Source of the DNA: Metallumcola ferriviriculae
Lineage (GTDB): Bacteria > Bacillota > JADQBR01
Assembly: GCF_035573695.1 (NCBI RefSeq)
Contig: NZ_CP121694.1
Span: forward strand, 3,418,001 to 3,482,000
DNA length: 64,000 nt
Reading direction: 5' to 3'
Shown: piece by piece, positions 17,724 through 56,585 of the stretch
Layout: each line of letters starts with the position of its first letter
How positions within the stretch are numbered: the stretch's first letter is position 1
Made by a program: the position numbers and the translations under genes
Notes under the pieces: model-generated
Seen by the model: only the letters and a program-made list of their open reading frames with translations
Databases searched by the model: none
Told to the model about the DNA's origin: nothing

Positions 17724-18248
17724 CTACTTGTTCATCTGCTCAAGGTAAGCTGTCACACCCAATTCTTGTAGTTTTTTATCTTTTTCTGCAACAGCCCCCG
17801 CCAGTTCCTGCTTAAAGCTGCGAACTTTTTCCCGAACCGCCGGATCCTTTACTCCTATGATTTGGGCTGCCAAAATTCCGGCATTCTTTGCGCCATTAAT
17901 AGCCACGGTGGCGACAGGAATTCCTCGGGGCATCTGTACAATCGAATAAAGAGAATCCACGCCCCCTAAGGTTGAGGTTTTGATGGGAACACCAATTACC
18001 GGCAAACAAGTCAGGGCAGCAATTACTCCGGGCAAGTGGGCAGCTCCGCCGGCTGCAGCAATAATTACCTCGATGCGTCTTTCCTCGGCGCTCTGCGCAT
18101 ATTGAGCAGTTTTCTCCGGTACCCGATGGGCTGAAGATATTACTATCTCATACTCCACACCCAGCTGTTCCAATACCTCAGTCGTATCCCTCATCACCGG
18201 CAAATCTGAATCGCTTCCCATTACAATTCCTACTTTTGGTTGTGTCAA
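17724..18248 (-). CDS. purE: N5-carboxyaminoimidazole ribonucleotide mutase PurE
   Basis: Carboxylation step of the pathway. 174 residues. VGIVMGSDSDLPVM, SSAHRVPEKT (about 42) and AAAGGAAHLPGV are present, followed by GVPIKTSTLGGVDSLYSIVQ. These resemble class I PurE, which uses N5-CAIR made by PurK, yet no purK lies in the operon. The start is TTG, with GGAGG seven to eight bases upstream. It is the second gene of the operon, 41 bases after the permease. Confidence 0.96.
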   Translation of the reverse strand: MTQPKVGIVMGSDSDLPVMRDTTEVLEQLGVEYEIVISSAHRVPEKTAQYAQSAEERRIEVIIAAAGGAAHLPGVIAALTCLPVIGVPIKTSTLGGVDSLYSIVQMPRGIPVATVAINGAKNAGILAAQIIGVKDPAVREKVRSFKQELAGAVAEKDKKLQELGVTAYLEQMNK

Positions 18249-18289: not shown

Positions 18290-19636
18290 TTAAACGATAA
18301 AAAACCTCAGAACAAAGATACCAGTGAGAATCCACATTGTCAGACTGACGTCTTTTATTCTGCCAGTCAAGGCGTGCAAGAAAGTATAAGCCAATACTCC
18401 GGCTACAATACCTTCGGCAATACTAAAAGAAAATGGCATTATAACGATGGTAAGGAATGCAGGAATTGCTTCTAGCATATCACTAAAATTAATTTTCATT
18501 ACCGATTCCATCATAAAAATGCCAACGATGATCAGAATCGGCGCGGTAGCTGCACCGGGAATAATAGCCACCAACGGAGAGAAAAAGATGGACAAAAAGA
18601 AAAGAATGGCTGTGGTTAAGGATGTCAGGCCTGTCCGCCCGCCTTCGGCAACACCGGAAGCACTCTCAACATAAGTGGTTACGGTACTGGTCCCCATAAC
18701 AGAACCAAAGATGGTACCAACTGAATCGGCAAGCAGTGCCTTATTGGCTCTTGGCAGGTGCCCTTTTTCATCTAACATATCCGCCTTACTGGCCACGCCA
18801 ACCAAAGTGCCAATGGTATCAAATAAATCAACAAAAGCAAAGGTAAAGATTACTGTCAGCCAGCCGACACTGGCTAGTTCATTGAAGTTCATCTTGAAGA
18901 AAATCTCACCAATGCTCGGGGGCATACTTACTATTTGGAAATTGCTAATGTTGGTAACTCCCATAGGGATACCAATGATGGTGGTAAGTAATATTCCATA
19001 AAGCAAAGCGCCTTTAGTTCTCCGGACTACTAAGAAACCAGTAACTAACAATCCGATAATTGATAGCAAGACACTTTGTGGGGTAATGAAATTTGCCTTA
19101 AAGTATTCAGCATAGTTAGGATCTTGGAATAAATGCGGATTAACAATCTTTAAGAAAGTGGCTGGGTCGCTGACAATAATACCTGCATTTTTAAAGCCGA
19201 TGAAAGCAATAAAAAGACCAATACCAGCACCAACAGCCAGCTTCAGTGACATAGGAATTGCGTTTACAATGGCCTCGCGAGCCTTGGTTAGTGTTAACAG
19301 CAGAAAGAGAACACCGGAAACAAACACGGCAGCCAGAGCAGCCTGCCAAGAAAGTCCCATTCCAAGAACAACTGTATAGGTAAAGAATGCATTTAAACCC
19401 ATACCAGGAGCCAAAGCAAACGGGTAGTTAGCAAGAACAGACATCAGTAGGGTAGCAAAAGCTGCAGATAATGCTGTCGCCACCATCACAGCACCAAAAG
19501 GCATGCCGGTCGCACTTAAAATAGAAGGATTGACAAAAATAATGTATGCCATGGTCATAAACGTGGTAACGCCGGCCATAACTTCAGTGCGAACATTAGT
19601 ATTATGTTCTTTTAATTTAAAAAAGCTTTCTAACAC
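18290..19636 (-). CDS. NCS2 family purine permease (AzgA/PbuG-like)
   Basis: Proton-coupled importer of guanine, hypoxanthine or adenine, 448 residues with about 12 to 14 membrane segments. NTNVRTEVMAGVTTFMTMAYI and the GMGLNAFFTY motif are characteristic of the AzgA branch. It is the first gene after a guanine-class riboswitch and heads the purine operon, so salvage import and synthesis are controlled together. Start is GTG at 19636 with AGGGGAG about ten bases upstream. The exact substrate is inferred from the riboswitch class. Confidence 0.92.
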   Translation of the reverse strand: MLESFFKLKEHNTNVRTEVMAGVTTFMTMAYIIFVNPSILSATGMPFGAVMVATALSAAFATLLMSVLANYPFALAPGMGLNAFFTYTVVLGMGLSWQAALAAVFVSGVLFLLLTLTKAREAIVNAIPMSLKLAVGAGIGLFIAFIGFKNAGIIVSDPATFLKIVNPHLFQDPNYAEYFKANFITPQSVLLSIIGLLVTGFLVVRRTKGALLYGILLTTIIGIPMGVTNISNFQIVSMPPSIGEIFFKMNFNELASVGWLTVIFTFAFVDLFDTIGTLVGVASKADMLDEKGHLPRANKALLADSVGTIFGSVMGTSTVTTYVESASGVAEGGRTGLTSLTTAILFFLSIFFSPLVAIIPGAATAPILIIVGIFMMESVMKINFSDMLEAIPAFLTIVIMPFSFSIAEGIVAGVLAYTFLHALTGRIKDVSLTMWILTGIFVLRFFIV

Positions 19637-19776: not shown

Positions 19777-19863
19777 TTATCCCTCCGGTGTAGCGCTTGA
19801 TAGGCACCTGCACCACTTGATCCAGCCATGCCCATGAGCATGCGGAACTCTAGGTGCACTTTC

Positions 19864-19937
19864 CACTGTAGCCAGGGTAATTTACGGTTACCCGGTAGAG
19901 ACTTGCGAGCCATATTCTCACAATTATACAGCTGAGG
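19864..19937 (-). promoter_or_regulatory. Purine riboswitch aptamer (guanine class)
   Basis: On the minus strand the block TATAATTGTGAGAATATGGC, then CAAGTCTCTACCGGGTAACC, then GTAAATTACCC and TGGCTACAG matches the xpt-type aptamer: P1 pairs CTGTA with TACAG, the J1/2 TATAAT, L2 and L3 loops and the P3 stem CCGGGTA/TTACCCTGG are all present. The specificity position is C (CTA in J3/1), the guanine/hypoxanthine class rather than adenine. Known family; specificity inferred. It should switch the whole 12-gene operon off when guanine is plentiful. Confidence 0.9.
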
Positions 19938-20050
19938 AAATTGCATAATTAACTTTTTGCAACTTCTCAAAAATAGTTCAAAAAATGCAATAAATACTAA
20001 ACCCACTTTTAATCTGTGGATAACTAAAATATTTTCTTTTTTAAAGTACT

Positions 20051-21312
20051 GAATTATCCACAGGTAGTGCTAAGCAACTTTTAGTTTGCTTTGGCCTGAG
20101 TTTGCTGCTATTGTCCCAGCAACTAAAGCAATTGAGTTTAAGAGGCAGTGGGTTAGAGCTTTTTTAATCCCTTTAGCCCTGATATTTCCTAGATTGAGAT
20201 ATTCTTTAAGTCTACTGTTACATCGTTCAACTGCTGTTCTTTGATTGTAGATGCTTTGCCATTTTTCTGTACCTCTGAACGGATAGCTATAAAACCTGGG
20301 TTCCTTTTTATAGTTGACCTTTCTAACATAACCGTAGTTAGAGTTGGAACACCAGTTAGATCCGTGGACACAATCGACTTTCCCGCATACATGAGGACAT
20401 CTTAGTTTGATATAGTCACCATCTGTACCCCAGTAAACCATCTTATAGCCTGCGGAACAAATGGGTTGCAAATCATTATCTAACCCTTCGGGGGCGCTTT
20501 TGCTTCCTCGTGGATTATAAGCTATAACTGGTTTAGCCTGATAGTCATTTACTATAGCATCATAGATGTAATTAAAGTCATATCCAGAGTCCATGGCATA
20601 GTATCGGGGTTTAAAGAGGTCTCCAAAACTCTCAAATAATTTTTCAATCAGCGGCAAGGCAACAGTTCCGTCATATACGTTTGCCGGAGTAACGGATATT
20701 TCTAGTGGCAGCTCACTTTTGGTATCACTCAGGATATGAAGTTTCCAGCCAAACCATTTTACTTGATTGCCGTTTGTATCTCGCTTGGCGCCCCAGTTAG
20801 GCGTTAAACCGTTATCCGTAAGTTTACTATGAGGTTTAGGGCTCTCAAAAGCATCCATTTTGGTTGAATCAATGGCTACAGTTTCACCGTCGATAATATT
20901 CAGTTCCTTTGCGCGGATAACTAATTTATGAAATAGCTTTTGCAGATCCTCACTTTCTGAAATCTTAGTTAGAAACCGGCTGAATGTGGCCTCTGAAGGT
21001 ACCTGGCCACATACTTCAAAACAGCAGCAGTAACGAAAAACAGGGTCTTGCTTTAACCTTTGCACTAAAGCTTTAACAGTTCTTATTTGCTCTAGCTGCG
21101 CAGCAATTAAAGCATATAGCATTGGTGTTGGGTCATAGCCTTTGGGACCAAACCTACTTCTCTTAAAGGCTATTTCAAAATCACTTAGGTCAATTTGTGA
21201 CAAAACCAATTCCAACTTTGTTTGGGGCTGAAGATTTAAAATTTCTTCAAAGGATAATAAGCATTCTTGGCGAATATACATTAGTGATTTCACCTACCTT
21301 GTGGATAATTTT
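20051..21312. mobile_element. Complete insertion sequence, IS5/IS1182-type, 1.26 kb
   Basis: One intact transposase gene bounded by related ends: GAATTATCCACAGGTAG at 20051-20067 and, inverted, CTACCTTGTGGATAATTTT at 21294-21312. One arm has an extra base. A third similar motif (CTGTGGATAACTAAAAT, 20015-20031) lies just outside the left end, so the true terminus may be farther out. I could not identify a target duplication. It separates the purine operon leader from the accessory island. Confidence 0.75.
20070..21281 (-). CDS. DDE transposase of the IS5/IS1182 group
   Basis: About 403 residues, apparently intact. N-terminal DUF772-like region (YDPTPMLYALIAAQLEQIRT, CGQVPSEATFSRF), then a DDE domain: ETVAIDSTKMDAF (first Asp near 144), WFGWKLHILSD, YYAMDSGYD (second Asp near 240) and the C-terminal RTAVERCNSRLKEYLNLGN with the catalytic Glu. 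I use the ATG at 21281; a GTG four codons upstream overlaps the terminal repeat. The family level is sure; the IS subgroup is my reading. Confidence 0.88.
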   Translation of the reverse strand: MYIRQECLLSFEEILNLQPQTKLELVLSQIDLSDFEIAFKRSRFGPKGYDPTPMLYALIAAQLEQIRTVKALVQRLKQDPVFRYCCCFEVCGQVPSEATFSRFLTKISESEDLQKLFHKLVIRAKELNIIDGETVAIDSTKMDAFESPKPHSKLTDNGLTPNWGAKRDTNGNQVKWFGWKLHILSDTKSELPLEISVTPANVYDGTVALPLIEKLFESFGDLFKPRYYAMDSGYDFNYIYDAIVNDYQAKPVIAYNPRGSKSAPEGLDNDLQPICSAGYKMVYWGTDGDYIKLRCPHVCGKVDCVHGSNWCSNSNYGYVRKVNYKKEPRFYSYPFRGTEKWQSIYNQRTAVERCNSRLKEYLNLGNIRAKGIKKALTHCLLNSIALVAGTIAANSGQSKLKVA

Positions 21313-48364: not shown

Positions 48365-50008
<1,644 letters not shown>

Positions 50009-50024
50009 TTAAACCTTCTCTTTT

Positions 50025-50312
50025 TTATTGAACTTTTGCTAATATGTGTTCTCCAGCCAAAATTAAGTATTCCTTGCCATCCAGCTTTACCTCAGTGCCC
50101 GTATACTTGGAGTAGATTACCTTGTCGCCTTCTTTAACCTCCAAGGCTACCTTTTCACCATTTTCCAGCACACGACCGCTGCCTACTGCAACAACTTCGC
50201 CTTCCTGAGGCTTTTCCTTGGCAGTATCCGGCAAAACGATACCACTGACCGTTTTCTCCTCAGATTCTAACACCTTAATCACTACTTTGTCACCTAATGG
50301 CTTGATGTTCAT
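50025..50312 (-). CDS. groS: Co-chaperonin GroES (10 kDa)
   Basis: 95 residues starting [20 protein letters not shown], with the mobile loop [20 protein letters not shown] and the beta-barrel ending [15 protein letters not shown] chose the ATG at 50312 (AAGGAGGG upstream); a longer frame to 50360 would run into the CIRCE operator. Confidence 0.97.
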
Positions 50313-50349
50313 TACAACAAACCCTCCTTCTATTATATGATATTTATTA

Positions 50350-50376
50350 TTAGCACTCACCGCTAGTGAGTGCTAA
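50350..50376 (-). promoter_or_regulatory. CIRCE operator
   Basis: TTAGCACTC-N9-GAGTGCTAA, a perfect match to the HrcA-binding CIRCE consensus, 38 bases before the groES start. It predicts HrcA-mediated heat-shock induction; hrcA itself is not in the window. Confidence 0.97.
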
Positions 50377-50669
50377 CATCCAACAATACTAATAATAATC
50401 AAGCTTTGGCTTCTATGCAAGTATTGTCTATGGCCATTTCACGAAACTATTGCCCGTTTACAGTCTATTTCCTCTTATTTCCTTGTTAAATCTATGCAAA
50501 TCTTTATTTATCTTACATTAGCTGGGATTTTGACTAAAAAAACACTGAACGGCATTATTTATTGTTACCACCTCATGAAAAAATATTACCAATTAAGGTA
50601 AGTTTTATACAATCATCTCAAAAATTTCATCCCAAGTCCCATTTAGTGGCGCGTTGAGCAGTTCATTTG
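50377..50669. other. Gene-free stretch between groES and mogA
   Basis: About 290 AT-rich bases including the groESL promoter area. No coding frame, hairpin or repeat that I can support. Confidence 0.5.
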
Positions 50670-51164
50670 TTATATATTACTACCACATTCTCCAGTGTCA
50701 CCTCGCAGAATCTCTATTCCATGTTTTAACGGCGGTAGAATCACATCCAAACATTCCTTTACCGCTTTGGGACTCCCCGGCAGATTAATAATCAATGTCT
50801 CGGCGCGGATGCCCGCAACCGCTCTAGAAAGCATAGCCCTGTCGGTAACCGCCAAACTACGCATACGCATCGCTTCCGGGATCCCCGGTACTAACCTTTC
50901 AACTATACTCATGGTTGCTTCGGGGGTTATGTCCCGAGGGCTCATACCGGTGCCCCCGGTGGTAAAAACCAAATCAAGCTTAAGTACATCAGCGCAATAC
51001 TTCATTGACCTTACCAATTCAGTCTGCTCATCAGGGACAATAACGTAATGAATTACTTCCCCGCCTATCTGTCTGGCCATATCTTTAATTACCGGCGCGC
51101 TCTTATCTTCTCTTTCCCCCCGGGAACCCTTGTCACTTGCGGTAATGATGCCAACCTTAATCAT
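50670..51164 (-). CDS. MogA/MoaB family molybdopterin adenylyltransferase
   Basis: 164 residues. VGIITASDKGSRGEREDKSA, LVFTTGGTGMSPRDITPEAT (about 68-87) and LINLPGSPKAVKECLDVI are MogA/MoaB motifs. It adenylylates molybdopterin before metal insertion by MoeA. Last gene of the cofactor operon, overlapping the MOSC gene by 8 bases. MogA versus MoaB cannot be decided by eye. Confidence 0.93.
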   Translation of the reverse strand: MIKVGIITASDKGSRGEREDKSAPVIKDMARQIGGEVIHYVIVPDEQTELVRSMKYCADVLKLDLVFTTGGTGMSPRDITPEATMSIVERLVPGIPEAMRMRSLAVTDRAMLSRAVAGIRAETLIINLPGSPKAVKECLDVILPPLKHGIEILRGDTGECGSNI

Positions 51165-51597
51165 CCTTCACCACCACCAATCCATCGCCTACCCTGACTT
51201 TCCCATCTTCAAGCACTTTGACAAATATCCCCTCTTTAGGCATAACACAGTCACCCGCCTGATAATAAATAGCGCAGCGGTCATGGCAGACCTTGCCTAT
51301 TTGGGTCACCTCACAGAGCACTTCATCTCCTAATCTCACCTTGGTCCCCACCGGCAATTTTGCTACTTTTATGCCTTCGGTAGTGATGTTTTCCGCAAAA
51401 TCCCCAGGGCCTACATCCAATCCCTTGTCCTGCATCTTTTTAATACTTTCCACAGCCAAAAGGCTTACCTGCCTATGCCAATCGCCGGCGTGGGCATCCC
51501 CCACTATGCCGTGATTAACCTGAAAAGCCGCTTCCCCTACATTTTTCTTACGTTCACCTTTCTTTTCACTGGTACACACCGCTATTATTTTCCCCAC
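51157..51597 (-). CDS. MOSC domain protein
   Basis: 146 residues of the stand-alone MOSC type: [58 protein letters not shown] and the conserved Cys in the CHDRCAIYY segment. MOSC domains are sulfur carriers in molybdenum cofactor maturation. In this operon it probably modifies Mo or W cofactor for enzymes such as the formate dehydrogenase at 62.6 kb. Overlaps moaC by 13 bases. Confidence 0.92.
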
Positions 51598-52079
51598 TCT
51601 TCTTCACCCTCTCGCTTAAAATGCCCGCTTTTACCGCCGCTTTTTTCCACTAACCGGACCGCCTCAATTATCATGGCTTTATCAACAGCCTTACACATAT
51701 CATAAATAGTTAGTCCAGCAACCGACACCGCCGTTAGTGCTTCCATCTCCACCCCGGTTTTACCGGTGGTCCCCACCCGGGCCTCTATCTCCACCTTGGT
51801 TTCTTGTGAATTAATTTTGAAATCAACTTCGATAGAAGTGAGCATTAATGGATGACACATAGGTATAAGCTCCCCGGTTTTCTTGGCAGCCATAATCCCT
51901 GCCACCCGAGCTACCCCTAATACATCTCCTTTGGCTACTTGTCCCCGGGCAATGCGTTCTAAAGTTGCCTTCTTCATCATTACACTACCCCGCGCTACCG
52001 CAACCCGCCTGGTATCCCCCTTTTCAGAGACATCCACCATCCTTGCCCGTCCTTGCTCGTCAAAATGAGTAAGCTCCAT
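51585..52079 (-). CDS. moaC: Cyclic pyranopterin monophosphate synthase MoaC
   Basis: 164 residues. [33 protein letters not shown] (about 75) and [20 protein letters not shown] with the catalytic KAVDK are intact. It acts after MoaA on the GTP-derived intermediate. Starts 3 bases after moaA. Confidence 0.97.
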
Positions 52080-52082
52080 CCT

Positions 52083-53048
52083 TTACCCCCCTATGGTATT
52101 CATCAACGAATTTTTATTCCATTCGCTGCTGCGGTATCCGGCAGGTTTATGCATTACCGCCTGTCCGAACAGTTCTACTAGTTCCGCTTCGGCAGCACCG
52201 TTTCGCAGCGGGCCTTTAATATCCAGGCTCTGTTCTTGCTGCAGACAATAGCGCAGCCGCCCGTCGGCAGTTAACCGCAGCCGATTACACCGAGCGCAGA
52301 AGTGTCTGCTGATAGCATGGATAAATCCTACAGTGCCGTGATACCCCTCCACTTTGAAGTAATCCGCCGGGCCGCCCCCGGCCAATTCGCCTTTCACCAA
52401 TGAGTAGTCCTCACTAACTATTTTTTTAATCTCTTCAGCGGAAACAAACTCATCACTCAACCCGCCACCACATCCCATGGGCATAATTTCGATAAACCGC
52501 ACGTGGATTGGCGCACTTTCAGTGAAACGAATAAAATCCCGCACCTCATCCAGGTTGAAATCCCGCTGAACCACCACATTTATCTTAACAGGAGTCAACC
52601 CCAAAGCTAGGGCCTTCTCAATCCCCACCAACACTCGGCCCAAGCTACCGCGTCGAGTAATTTCTTTGTACTTATGTTCCATCAAAGTATCCAAACTGAT
52701 ATTGACCCGCTTCAGGCCGGCCTCCTTTAGCTCTTCGGCCAGGTCAGCCAGTAAAATAGCATTGGTGGTAAGCGAAATGTCTTTTATCCCAGGCATCAAG
52801 CTTACTTTTTTTATCAACGTACTAACATCGCGTCTCACCAATGGTTCGCCACCGGTAATTCGCACCCTCCGAATACCAGCATTGCTGCCGGCTCGTATTA
52901 TTCGTTCTAACTCTTCCAAGCTGAGAATTTCATCCCGGGAAAGCTGCTCAACCCCTTCTTCGGGCATACAATAACAGCAGCGTAGGTTGCAGCGGTCTGT
53001 GACACTTACCCGCAAATAATCAATATTACGGCCAAATTTATCAAGCAT
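52083..53048 (-). CDS. moaA: GTP 3',8-cyclase MoaA (radical SAM)
   Basis: First step of molybdenum cofactor synthesis. About 321 residues from ATG 53048: MLDKFGRNIDYLRVSVTDRC with the SAM cluster motif CNLRCCYCMP (CX3CX2C), the GTP-binding C-terminal cluster (FCARCNRLRLTADGRLRYC) and the functional C-terminal Gly-Gly. It overlaps moeA by 8 bases. The open frame extending to 53141, with an apparent lipobox, lies over moeA and is not coding. Confidence 0.96.
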   Translation of the reverse strand: MLDKFGRNIDYLRVSVTDRCNLRCCYCMPEEGVEQLSRDEILSLEELERIIRAGSNAGIRRVRITGGEPLVRRDVSTLIKKVSLMPGIKDISLTTNAILLADLAEELKEAGLKRVNISLDTLMEHKYKEITRRGSLGRVLVGIEKALALGLTPVKINVVVQRDFNLDEVRDFIRFTESAPIHVRFIEIMPMGCGGGLSDEFVSAEEIKKIVSEDYSLVKGELAGGGPADYFKVEGYHGTVGFIHAISRHFCARCNRLRLTADGRLRYCLQQEQSLDIKGPLRNGAAEAELVELFGQAVMHKPAGYRSSEWNKNSLMNTIGG

Positions 53049-54978
53049 CCTGATCCTCCTCTCCCGGCAGCCAGATAATACTGCCGCTATTAGAAGCATC
53101 ATAACCGCCAAGAGCTTTGGCCCGCCGTCGAAACTCTTCACTTCGGATTATTTCCAACATCTTTGCGATTAATGGAGTGTCCATCAGTTGCCGGGGAATA
53201 CAGATATCATAACGTTCTCGGTCCACCGGAACGAAATCAAGACCTAAGGCCTTTGCCGCCGCCCGTATTCCTAACGCCGCATCCGCGGCACCATTGGCCA
53301 CTGCTGCCGCCGCAGAAAGGTGAGTATATTCTTCACGCCGATAGCCTTGTATTTGTCTGGGATCTATCCCCTCTTCCTTCAACCTGAAATCCAGCAGCAC
53401 CCGAGTGCCGGACCCTTTCTGCCGATTGATGAATACAATATCCTCTTGCGCTAAGCTTCTTAAATTTTTTATCCCTTTGGGATTTCCCGGAGCCACCATC
53501 AACCCTTGTTCCCTGTAGGTTAAGTGAACCAATAGCGCTTTGTCCTGTAAATGCTGTTTGACATAAGTTATATTATACTCCCCACTTGCCGGGTCCAACA
53601 GGTGGGTACCGGCACAATGTGCCTCCACATCCCTTAGTCCTACTAAACCGCCTAGACTACCCACGTGAGCAGAGGCCACGGAATAACCCAGGTAACGCTC
53701 TCGCATTATGCTGTCTATAATATCCAAAGTCATGTCATGGCTGCCGCTGATCATCAGTGTACGCCTAATCTCCGCCTGATCGCGGAAAAGCTCCACCATT
53801 ATTGTCTCCCCGGCTAGCCGGCCCTCGCTAAGCCTATCCAGCACCAGCATCCCATCCGCTTTCACCAGAGAAGTAATCACCCCAGCTCCCCGGCCCAAAG
53901 GAGCGGCAATTAACTTTTCACCAACCTGACCCAGACGTACCCGCACAAACTCCTCCATACCTAAAGTAGAATGTAGAGACCGACTGAGCAGTGCTTTCAC
54001 CCGTTCCCCTTCTGCCGTTCCTTGGCCTCTTAAAGCTCTTACCAGCGGGTAAACAAAAAGCTTCGCCGTCAAAGCCGCTGACACCGGATAGCCGGGCACA
54101 CCGATAACAGGGGTCTTATCAATATAACCCAGTATCACCGGTTTTCCTGGTTTAATGGCCACACCGTGAGTCACCACGTTACCCAATTCAGCTAAAGCTG
54201 CCGCGGTAAAGTCTTCCCGCCCCGCTGACGAACCGGCATTGACGATAACTATATCGTTTTCCGATACTGCCTTGGCCATGGCATCACGAATTAATTCATA
54301 TTTATCCTTTATTATTGGAAATGTAGTTACTAGAGCACCCCACTGGGTAAATAAGCCGCCCAGCATAGTACTATTGAACTCCACAATCTCACCCCGTGCC
54401 GGAGTTTCCCCCGGGGGTACCAATTCTGACCCGGTAGGAATAACAGCTACCTTGGGCTGTCTCCGTACTTCTATGTCCTTAATGCCGCCTGCAATCACCG
54501 CCCCTAAATCAGGAGCCGTCAGGGTGTGGTTGCTGGGGATAATAACTTCTCCTTTAATCATATCCTCACCGATAGCTCTCACGTGCTGCCACGGAGATGC
54601 AGCAGCGATAATTTCTACTTTACCGTTATCAATGAACTGTACCTCTTCTACCATAATCACCGCATTGAACTGAGAAGGCAGCGGATCTCCGGTGTCCACT
54701 TCAACAGCATCCTCGTCCAGGGTTAAGACCACTGGGTTAGTTTCTCGGGCCTGATAGGTGTCTTCAGCTCGAACCGCTATTCCATCCATTGCTGAAGCAT
54801 GGTAATGGGGTACAGAACTCTTTGATACTACAGCTTCTGCTGTAACCATTCCTAATGAATCTCGTATGGGCATTAACTTCCCCGCCAACGGCTCCAACGC
54901 CCCCAGTTGCTCTAATTGGGCCACGAATTCACTGCGTGCACCTTGATATTCTTTATTTTCCAGGTAAACTCTCCGCAT
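53041..54978 (-). CDS. moeA: MoeA with C-terminal substrate-binding-like domain
   Basis: 645 residues. The first about 410 form a MoeA molybdotransferase: HYHASAMDGIAVRAEDT, PTGSELVPPGETPARGEIVE, NAGSSAGREDFTAAAL and GYPVSAALTAKLFVYPLVRAL. The last about 220 (SHDMTLDIIDSIMRERYLGY, FINRQKGSGTRVLLDF, GAADAALGIRAAAKALGLDF) match the PBP-like domain seen in ModE/LysR-type molybdate proteins. Such fusions are known in anaerobes; the extra domain might sense molybdate or tungstate. Starts 3 bases after the other MoeA. Confidence 0.94.
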   Translation of the reverse strand: MRRVYLENKEYQGARSEFVAQLEQLGALEPLAGKLMPIRDSLGMVTAEAVVSKSSVPHYHASAMDGIAVRAEDTYQARETNPVVLTLDEDAVEVDTGDPLPSQFNAVIMVEEVQFIDNGKVEIIAAASPWQHVRAIGEDMIKGEVIIPSNHTLTAPDLGAVIAGGIKDIEVRRQPKVAVIPTGSELVPPGETPARGEIVEFNSTMLGGLFTQWGALVTTFPIIKDKYELIRDAMAKAVSENDIVIVNAGSSAGREDFTAAALAELGNVVTHGVAIKPGKPVILGYIDKTPVIGVPGYPVSAALTAKLFVYPLVRALRGQGTAEGERVKALLSRSLHSTLGMEEFVRVRLGQVGEKLIAAPLGRGAGVITSLVKADGMLVLDRLSEGRLAGETIMVELFRDQAEIRRTLMISGSHDMTLDIIDSIMRERYLGYSVASAHVGSLGGLVGLRDVEAHCAGTHLLDPASGEYNITYVKQHLQDKALLVHLTYREQGLMVAPGNPKGIKNLRSLAQEDIVFINRQKGSGTRVLLDFRLKEEGIDPRQIQGYRREEYTHLSAAAAVANGAADAALGIRAAAKALGLDFVPVDRERYDICIPRQLMDTPLIAKMLEIIRSEEFRRRAKALGGYDASNSGSIIWLPGEEDQDA

Positions 54979-54981
54979 AGA

Positions 54982-56232
54982 TTACAACTCCTTAAACAAT
55001 TTCACTGCTACTTCAGAACCCGCTGCCAGCCCTTGGGCTTCTAACGATACAGTTACAACCCCGTGAGCCGCCGTAAGGGAAGTAAGCATTCCTGATTTGC
55101 CAAAAACCGGTTCTACCAGTACTTGTTCCCCCTGGCTGATTAGACGAACCCGTACATGTTCCTCCCGACCAGCCTGGGATGGGATGTTTTTGGTAAGTCT
55201 ACCGTAAACACATGCCGGCGGAAGCAATTCCCTTAAATGCCCCTTTAACAGCGGTTCCACCAATCTTCTAAATGTGATAAAAGCAGATACCGGGTGACCC
55301 GGCAGACCTATCACCAGGGTATTTGTACCGGAACTGTCTTTGACAACGGTAGCAAGGGTCGGCTTTCCGGGCTTTACTGCAATGCCATGAAACAGTAGTT
55401 CTCCCAATTGATTAAGTATCTTTAAGGTTAAGTCCCGTGTACCTACCGAAGAGCCCCCGGATACTAACACCACTTGGTTTTCTTCTACGGCCTTCAGTAT
55501 CGTTGCGCGGAATTCTTCTTCCTGATCAGGTACCAAGCGATATAAATGCGGCTGCCCGCCGGCATCTTTTACCGCTCCATACAAGGTATATGAATTACTA
55601 TCCCTGATTTGTCCCGGAGAAGGTGTTTTTTCCGGTTCGACCAATTCATTACCGGTAGAAATGATCCCCACATTGGGAAGGCAAAAGACTTCCACTTCAG
55701 TTATCCCCAAGCTGGCCAGCACTCCCATTTCCTGTCCCCGTACCAGGGTGCCCCGTCTCAGCACCACCTGGTTGGCACCAACATCCTCCCCTTTTTCTAA
55801 GATATTTTCCCCCGGTGCCACTGGTCGAAAAACGGCTATTGTTCGGTCGTCTATTTTTGCTGTTCTTTCTATCATCACCACAGCATTTGCCCCCTGCGGC
55901 AACATACTTCCCGTAGCCACAGCCATAGTTTCGTCCATATCAATTACTTGTTCCGGCTTAACCCCCATTGGTACCTCGCCACGTAAGGTCAGGTAAGCCG
56001 GTAAAGATTCGCTGGCGCCAAAGGTATCTTCGGCATTAACCGCGTAACCATCCATAGTTGAACGAGAAAAACCGGGTACATCTTCCGGCGCCACCACATC
56101 TTCTGACAATATCCGATTCCAAGTATCTCTTAGACCTACTCGCTCCAACCGGGCAGGCAGCTGCCAATGAGAAAGTATCTTCTCACTCGCTTGATCCGCG
56201 GTAATTACTTCAAACATTAACTCCCGGGGCAT
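54982..56232 (-). CDS. moeA: Molybdopterin molybdotransferase MoeA (single-domain paralogue)
   Basis: About 416 residues. MPRELMFEVITADQASEKIL, PGFSRSTMDGYAVNAEDTFG, STGNELVEPEKTPSPGQIRD, SGGSSVGTRDLTLKILNQLG and GLPGHPVSAFITFRRLVEPL give a complete MoeA. The ATG at 56232 overlaps the stop of the upstream 57-residue gene (TAAAATG), so the two are coupled. Two MoeA paralogues in one operon may serve Mo and W separately; that is inference from other anaerobes. Confidence 0.94.
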   Translation of the reverse strand: MPRELMFEVITADQASEKILSHWQLPARLERVGLRDTWNRILSEDVVAPEDVPGFSRSTMDGYAVNAEDTFGASESLPAYLTLRGEVPMGVKPEQVIDMDETMAVATGSMLPQGANAVVMIERTAKIDDRTIAVFRPVAPGENILEKGEDVGANQVVLRRGTLVRGQEMGVLASLGITEVEVFCLPNVGIISTGNELVEPEKTPSPGQIRDSNSYTLYGAVKDAGGQPHLYRLVPDQEEEFRATILKAVEENQVVLVSGGSSVGTRDLTLKILNQLGELLFHGIAVKPGKPTLATVVKDSSGTNTLVIGLPGHPVSAFITFRRLVEPLLKGHLRELLPPACVYGRLTKNIPSQAGREEHVRVRLISQGEQVLVEPVFGKSGMLTSLTAAHGVVTVSLEAQGLAAGSEVAVKLFKEL

Positions 56233-56233
56233 T

Positions 56234-56407
56234 TTAAAAACACCCCAGCTGACAGGCAAATAGCTTAATATTCAACCGATCTGCGGCAGCACCGACTTCC
56301 TTAAGGGAAATCTTGTGTTCTTTAGCTAATTCGTGGGCTTTACTGCATGATAATTTGTTGTTGTCCGCAGCCTTAATAACTATCTCATCAATCTGTTTTC
56401 TATCCAC
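56234..56407 (-). CDS. Small 57-residue protein, first gene of the Moco operon
   Basis: GTG start with AGGAGG seven bases upstream; stop overlaps the moeA start region. The sequence opens MDRKQIDEIVIKAADNNKLS, has helices typical of a small winged or coiled fold (KAHELAKEHKISLKEVGAAA) and ends LFACQLGCF, with cysteines 21, 52 and 56. I remember similar short proteins near molybdenum genes in anaerobic Firmicutes but know no function; the terminal C-x-x-x-C could bind metal or sulfur. It is easily missed because of the GTG start and short length. Confidence 0.75.
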   Translation of the reverse strand: MDRKQIDEIVIKAADNNKLSCSKAHELAKEHKISLKEVGAAADRLNIKLFACQLGCF

Positions 56408-56423
56408 TGAAATCGCCTCCTAA

Positions 56424-56452
56424 ATAAAAAAACCGGCACAGAAGGGCCGGAT
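56424..56452 (-). terminator. Terminator of the Moco-operon leader
   Basis: Minus strand CCGGC-CCTTCTGT-GCCGG followed by TTTTTTTA. It lies between the structured leader and the first gene, 17 bases before its GTG, so it must be read through for expression and is the likely switch of the riboswitch. Confidence 0.85.
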
Positions 56453-56454
56453 GG

Positions 56455-56585
56455 TTTACTGGCTCCTTTCCAAATGCGGGAGGCCTTGGCGTTTCCACCA
56501 AAACCCTCTCTGCTCAGCAGACGGCTGTATTACCATAGACTTCCTTAGGTAAGGCAGCTCGGAGCGGTACTTGTATATTATTATA
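56455..56585 (-). promoter_or_regulatory. Probable Moco/Tuco riboswitch
   Basis: Structured GC-rich leader on the minus strand ahead of the cofactor operon. CTCCGAGCTGCC, the ACGCCAAGGCCTCCCGC block and GGAAAGGAG resemble the Moco RNA motif, and several stems can be drawn (CCTTACCTAAGG; GGCCTCC with GGAAAGGAG-type pairing). A terminator follows, giving an obvious off switch. Assignment is from memory of the motif and from the neighbouring genes; I could not run a covariance model. Ligand could be molybdenum or tungsten cofactor. Confidence 0.6.

Follow-up and report, generated by a model that had tools for sequence, protein, structure and literature searches.

A widespread family of small cysteine proteins associated with molybdenum and tungsten cofactor genes behind a Moco riboswitch

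The GTPases MeaB, HypB and UreG serve in the loading of cofactors or metals, HypA-HypB and UreE-UreG are metal-loading pairs for nickel, and the arm of DsrC/TusE passes sulfur via its penultimate cysteine. How molybdate or tungstate is delivered to MoeA, and how the metal is chosen in anaerobes that use both molybdenum and tungsten (Mo and W), are to our knowledge open questions. Two further systems are close to the locus studied here. For the Moco riboswitch (RF01055), presence of the P3 stem indicates the Moco type rather than the Tuco (tungsten) type, as given in the accessible part of PMC2408646. Moreover, the accessible part of PMC11733289 describes a contiguous MoeA pair that is common to Methanomicrobiales and some anaerobic bacteria. 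Its PBP-fused member was proposed there to serve tungsten, and the moeA pair was proposed to have passed laterally between Methanomicrobiales and anaerobic bacteria.

We report on a small gene, here referred to as X, that lies between such a riboswitch and such a moeA pair in Metallumcola ferriviriculae. The window, i.e. the whole stretch of DNA that was analysed, comprises 64,000 nucleotides (contig NZ_CP121694.1, positions 3,418,001 to 3,482,000). The accessible parts of PMC2408646 and PMC11733289 mention no small first gene behind the switch and no third small gene beside the MoeA pair, respectively, and the gene is likewise not mentioned in those of PMC10102598, PMC6147048 and PMC2700814. 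No title or abstract in the open-access library that was searched was found to describe it; a label for X may exist in subscription papers or in the COG/arCOG lists.

The riboswitch and the operon behind it

The features of the locus, all on the minus strand, are as follows (basis of each assignment in brackets).

56447-56576, minus strand: Moco riboswitch aptamer RF01055, with P3 stem (cmscan)
56426-56450, minus strand: intrinsic-terminator-like hairpin and T run, putative expression platform (sequence)
56416-56421, minus strand: Shine-Dalgarno sequence AGGAGG, 8 nt before the GTG (sequence)
56234-56407, minus strand: X, 57-residue three-cysteine protein, GTG start at 56407 (open reading frame and homologues)
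54982-56232, minus strand: moeA, 416 residues from the ATG at 56232 (Pfam MoeA_N, MoCF_biosynth, MoeA_C)
53041-54978, minus strand: second moeA, fused to a PBP_like domain, 645 residues (Pfam)
52083-53048, minus strand: moaA, start chosen at the methionine of MLDKFGR (Pfam Radical_SAM, Mob_synth_C)
51585-52079, minus strand: moaC (Pfam MoaC)
51157-51597, minus strand: MOSC-domain protein (Pfam MOSC)
50670-51164, minus strand: mog/moaB-type protein (Pfam MoCF_biosynth)

A probable Moco/Tuco riboswitch, with a structured leader and a terminator, had been proposed for this region. Running cmscan on the whole window identified the full-length RF01055 aptamer (model positions 1-135) at 56576-56447 with 82.7 bits (E 1.5e-18), compared to a gathering cut-off of 36 bits, and the riboswitch is an ordinary member of this family. 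Its P3 stem is aligned and paired in the RF01055 alignment of the leader; by the rule in the accessible part of PMC2408646 we therefore predict the Moco type, and the Tuco reading is not favoured. Ligand-dependent control by Moco is predicted from the aptamer match. A terminator-like hairpin (CCGGC..GCCGG) with a run of seven T behind it is also present (56450-56426), although taken alone this is weak evidence since 0.8 such terminator-like sites are expected by chance on the basis of shuffles. When the leader is folded freely on its own it does not stand out (z -1.07), and the evidence for the riboswitch is the covariance score and not the free folding. With its full aptamer, P3, terminator platform and downstream Moco operon, the leader does not differ from the riboswitches described in PMC2408646.

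Downstream of the switch and X the Moco genes follow in the order moeA, moeA-PBP, moaA, moaC, MOSC and mog, as identified with Pfam. MoeA followed by MoeA-PBP is also the arrangement of the archaeal-type pair MoeA2 and MoeA1-PBP (PMC11733289, accessible part). In the window as well as in methanogens, X precedes the moeA pair. The original prediction had a GTG-started small gene overlapping moeA, and of this the GTG start stands while the overlap does not: the stop codon of X (56236-56234) and the moeA ATG (56232-56230) are 1 nt apart, and MoeA read from this ATG is full, with MoeA_N starting at residue 10 (Pfam). The overlap needs a mechanical TTG start at 56259 and is an artefact of the longest-ORF rule.

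Two observations concern the genes on either side. The Moco genes are followed by groES/groEL-like genes (named by reading the sequence) in the window (48365-51164) and at loci L119, L122 and L177, and the order moa-mog-groESL is conserved between the window and many X loci of other families. Before the riboswitch, a patatin-like phospholipase gene (PF01734; 56713-57579, plus strand) is divergently oriented, and this patatin-like cluster (cluster 9) recurs in 19 of 193 loci.

Distribution, sequence and fold of X

X is a genuine, widespread and unnamed protein family, present in bacteria as well as archaea. The single window sequence matched 112 of the 299 genomes of the phylum at E <= 0.01, and a profile matched 113 of the 299 at E <= 0.001, nearly always with one copy. 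These 113 loci remained from 128 after removal of 14 short duplicates and one locus from a near-copy genome (L047), and a tandem second X domain in genome G142 was not counted separately. At this tandem locus (L053) both domains are in one open frame and the first is without C56 (CALGLF). An alignment-based scan of one genome per species gave at least 540 confirmed relatives, and the best 80 of these (hereafter the named loci, some of which are in genomes shared with the phylum set) include members from Nitrospirota, Chloroflexota, deltaproteobacterial groups, Actinomycetota, a planctomycete-type MAG and Methanoregula; in the archaeal phylum of the latter X was found in 24 of 148 genomes. A single-sequence scan of genome contigs with X was empty where the alignment scan gave these relatives, because its patterns were too strict, while no X homologue was found in viral contigs, phages or plasmids.

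X is short, starts with GTG and is positioned tightly before moeA, which is what would be seen for a chance open reading frame or for a translation-coupling leader lacking a function as protein. Homologues in 112 of 299 genomes exclude a chance reading frame, and conservation across phyla, invariant cysteines, domain fusions and the tandem copy speak against this reading as a whole; it is refuted by the conservation and we give it practically no probability.

As predicted, the protein has 57 residues and ends FACQLGCF with a C-x3-C pair, C52 and C56; in addition there is a third cysteine, C21, not mentioned in that prediction. A 78% redundancy filter left 89 sequences, of which alignment A1 comprises 82, with seven that were fused, truncated or odd omitted; in A1, C21, G39, C52, L54 and F57 are invariant; a second alignment, A2, comprises 73 of the 80 named-locus proteins and the window protein. 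For the cysteines we counted 205 sequences (113 from the phylum, 80 from the named loci and 12 archaeal), where it should be noted that the named loci were found with the pattern KIxxC[QE]LGCF and that their C-terminal conservation is built in. Both C52 and C21 are kept in all 205, the latter in one archaeal case displaced by an insertion of two residues, as judged by eye. C56, the penultimate residue in most members, is kept in 198, and the seven exceptions, all in the phylum set, carry Leu or Ile. The core is thus C21 and C52.

That X had no known function agrees with the database searches: the window protein is not covered by any Pfam family above cut-off (best PF24655, 14.2 vs 27 bits), there was no NCBIfam match and no match in PDB sequence and profile searches, and PHROGs gave nothing convincing. 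Among family members DUF7645 (PF24655) is the best recurrent Pfam match (29 of 82 members, best E 1.5e-5), and many of the weak Pfam matches are to helix-turn-helix (HTH) families. The AF2 model is compact with three helices and two strands (pLDDT 85.6, pTM 0.63), and the tail after residue 50, the last block, is less confident (pLDDT 68). For X alone, fold searches gave weak matches of the HTH, homeodomain and L11 type, with a best Foldseek E of 1.6 and a best Z of 5.6 for the ribosomal L11 C-terminal domain. DsrC, IscX and FeoC are absent among the fold matches listed, which excludes none of them.

The HTH-like model and the HTH families among the Pfam matches are what would be expected for a DNA- or RNA-binding regulator of the Moco genes equipped with a thiol or Fe-S sensor. 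We consider this unlikely given that none of the structure matches is significant, that the operon is already under a riboswitch, that X is fused to an enzyme-like GTPase (see below), and that helix 3 is on average slightly acidic. Specifically, its mean net charge is -0.77 in 107 phylum sequences and -0.80 in the 80 named ones (0 in the window protein), and it is +1 or more in 16-17% of the sequences.

The cysteines, on the other hand, bring to mind a sulfur carrier, in which a persulfide at C52/C56 on the flexible C-terminal end would pass sulfur to molybdopterin or to the Mo ligand. Like DsrC/TusE, X is small with a penultimate C-terminal cysteine; an invariant C52, the less confident tail of the model and the presence of FdhD in some X loci would fit as well. 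However, no DsrC/TusE match appeared in the PDB profile search or among the Pfam matches of the window protein, C56 is replaced in 7 of the 113 phylum members, and the fusion partner of X is a GTPase and not a sulfurtransferase. A role of this kind therefore appears rather improbable to us.

Gene neighbourhood and fusions

A Moco gene adjoins X in 107 of the 113 phylum loci. In 86 of them moeA is directly downstream on the same strand, at a distance never exceeding 162 nt (three of these loci also have a MobB-like gene upstream or fused), and in 14 moaA is directly downstream. The other seven have a MobB-like fusion only (two), mog (one) or another Moco gene within 4 kb (four), while no Moco gene was found near X in the remaining six. 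X is directly before moeA in all 12 archaeal loci that were fetched, and the suggested link between its homologues and moeA is thereby seen in both domains. Among the 80 named loci we found moeA in 24, moaA in three, a MobB-like gene upstream or fused in 15 and another Moco gene within 4 kb in 10; none was found in 28, several of these loci being truncated and the reference set small. Moco riboswitches were counted with a model trained on 15 X-linked examples. In 55 of the 113 phylum loci, the training examples included, one precedes X at a distance of 39-461 nt (four loci had less than 300 nt of upstream DNA), and one is also located upstream of X in 10 of the 80 named loci.

In Nitrospirota (L145, L147, L159, L182, L195 and other loci) there is a fixed order of a topA-like gene, MobB-like/X, a cytochrome c assembly gene (PF01578) and a hemA-like gene, which puts X between Moco and haem genes (topA and hemA were named by reading the sequence).

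X is also found as the C-terminal domain of a MobB-like P-loop protein, at L111-L114 and in the same form at six Nitrospirota loci (L147, L181, L190, L193, L195 and L199), and is hence fused to a GTPase of the MobB/HypB/UreG/MeaB type in at least two lineages. With Pfam MobB (PF03205, cut-off 26.6) the three fusions scanned score 25-35 bits (L112 35.1, L195 29.6 and L113 25.3), but four fusion proteins do not reach the equivalog cut-off of 76.2 for NCBIfam mobB (TIGR00176; 24.7-32.5 bits), and we therefore call the partner MobB-like only. The model of the L190 fusion (pLDDT 90.2, pTM 0.85) has MeaB/MMAA (Foldseek E 4e-5), with SRP-type GTPases among them, as best PDB matches, followed lower down by HypB (9e-4), UreG (2.5e-3) and E. 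coli MobB (1.1e-2), and on this model the partner is predicted to have the SIMIBI GTPase fold. A single locus, L202:5584-6171, has an in-frame fusion of X to a HIT domain (PF01230, E 4e-27) of the nucleotidyl-hydrolase type.

Its operon, its fusions and a gene order that recurs in bacteria and archaea tie X to late Moco/Tuco synthesis, and the genomic context lends good support to a genuine role in handling the Mo or W cofactor, as originally suggested from its position. We take the GTPase fusion as the strongest hint to mechanism, in which X would be the small partner both of MoeA and of a GTPase of this kind. HypA-HypB and UreE-UreG are comparable in that X, too, is a small cysteine protein linked or fused to what is predicted to be a SIMIBI GTPase, but no sequence relation was seen.

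Tentatively, and with slightly less than even confidence, we favour a chaperone role for X, in which this small thiol protein would help MoeA or the GTPase to load Mo or W into the cofactor; binding to MoeA, binding of metal or sulfur, and the step of action are what we infer. X represents an undescribed family of approximately 57-65-residue proteins, three-helix and HTH-like by the model, in which the invariant C21 and C52 and, towards the C-terminus, the usual third cysteine C56 would form a thiol site. It would act as an accessory protein in late Mo/W cofactor synthesis and is predicted to share a transcript with moeA, probably with coupled translation, under feedback from the Moco riboswitch. 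Docking would most likely be on MoeA or on the MobB-like SIMIBI GTPase, and during metal loading of molybdopterin X may hold a soft metal (Mo/W oxo-thio species or copper) or a persulfide. Together with the GTPase or MoeA it would resemble the loading of nickel by HypA-HypB and UreE-UreG.

Co-occurrence with Moco enzymes

MoeA_N is present in 207 of the 299 phylum genomes, 111 with and 96 without X. It was detected in 111 of the 113 X genomes (the two exceptions are both fusions) vs 96 of the 186 that lack X, which leaves 90 genomes with neither. Since 96 of 207 MoeA genomes are without X it is not essential for making Moco, and probably belongs to a variant of the pathway and not to the core.

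The AOR family was found in 37 of 40 X genomes vs 23 of 40 MoeA genomes without X (Fisher p 5e-4), Molybdop_Fe4S4 in 38 vs 27 of 40 (p 0.003) and both together in 36 vs 15 of 40 (p 1.5e-6), where these p-values ignore kinship and the choice of genomes, the 80 genomes being hand-picked from mostly different families. These counts suggest that X goes with organisms using both W-type and bis-MGD-type enzymes. It is conceivable, if doubtful, that X is the missing dedicated Mo/W-insertion metallochaperone of anaerobes: its thiols would receive Mo or W, or remove the copper that protects molybdopterin, and hand over to MoeA helped by the MobB-like GTPase, and X may keep Mo and W apart where Mo/bis-MGD and W/AOR enzymes are run side by side.

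An exclusive association with Moco synthesis is not upheld. MoeA is present in 14 of 20 X genomes that were checked (18 via named loci, plus G226 and G250); of the six without MoeA two have MoaC, and four (G226, G250, G304 and G312) have neither. In G226, a single contig with 99% completeness, X is present only as a fusion, located between fatty-acid synthesis and tRNA-synthetase genes as judged by reading the sequence. Genome incompleteness may explain G250, because this genome carries a Moco riboswitch and, next to its fusion, a formate dehydrogenase-like gene (again by reading the sequence). The four genomes would fit a wider thiol or Fe-S role of X in anaerobes, with the gene riding in a horizontally spread moe cassette. 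Dehalococcoidia loci in which X adjoins ferredoxin or YgbA_NO genes, a desulfobacterial locus with a neighbouring NUBPL-type Fe-S carrier ATPase, and the lateral transfer of the moeA pair proposed in the accessible part of PMC11733289 point in the same direction. Set against this are the fusion to the MobB-like GTPase and the Moco genes that adjoin X in archaea as well as in 107 of the 113 phylum loci, and we regard such a wider role as quite unlikely.

Nor does X mark one MoeA clade: on a FastTree tree of 101 rows (including 31 of 108 X-adjacent bacterial and 8 of 11 X-adjacent archaeal MoeA; deep branches are weak) adjacency to X needs 10 changes. The X-adjacent MoeA not being one clade, X was gained, lost or moved several times.

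X is a convenient object: it is tiny and easily expressed, and its position beside moeA in bacteria and archaea together with the fusion to a GTPase of the metal-loading type makes the questions of Mo/W delivery directly testable. Moreover, a family label would cover a gene in at least several hundred genomes for which there is no Pfam or NCBIfam model.

Finally, the window has a second riboswitch, of the purine type (RF00167, 77.6 bits; 19849-19951, minus strand). The open reading frame behind it (18290-19636) reads like a xanthine/uracil permease, a purE-like frame (17724-18248) is located further downstream, and an IS1182-type transposase-like frame (20070-21293, minus strand) is just upstream, all three assigned by reading the sequence.
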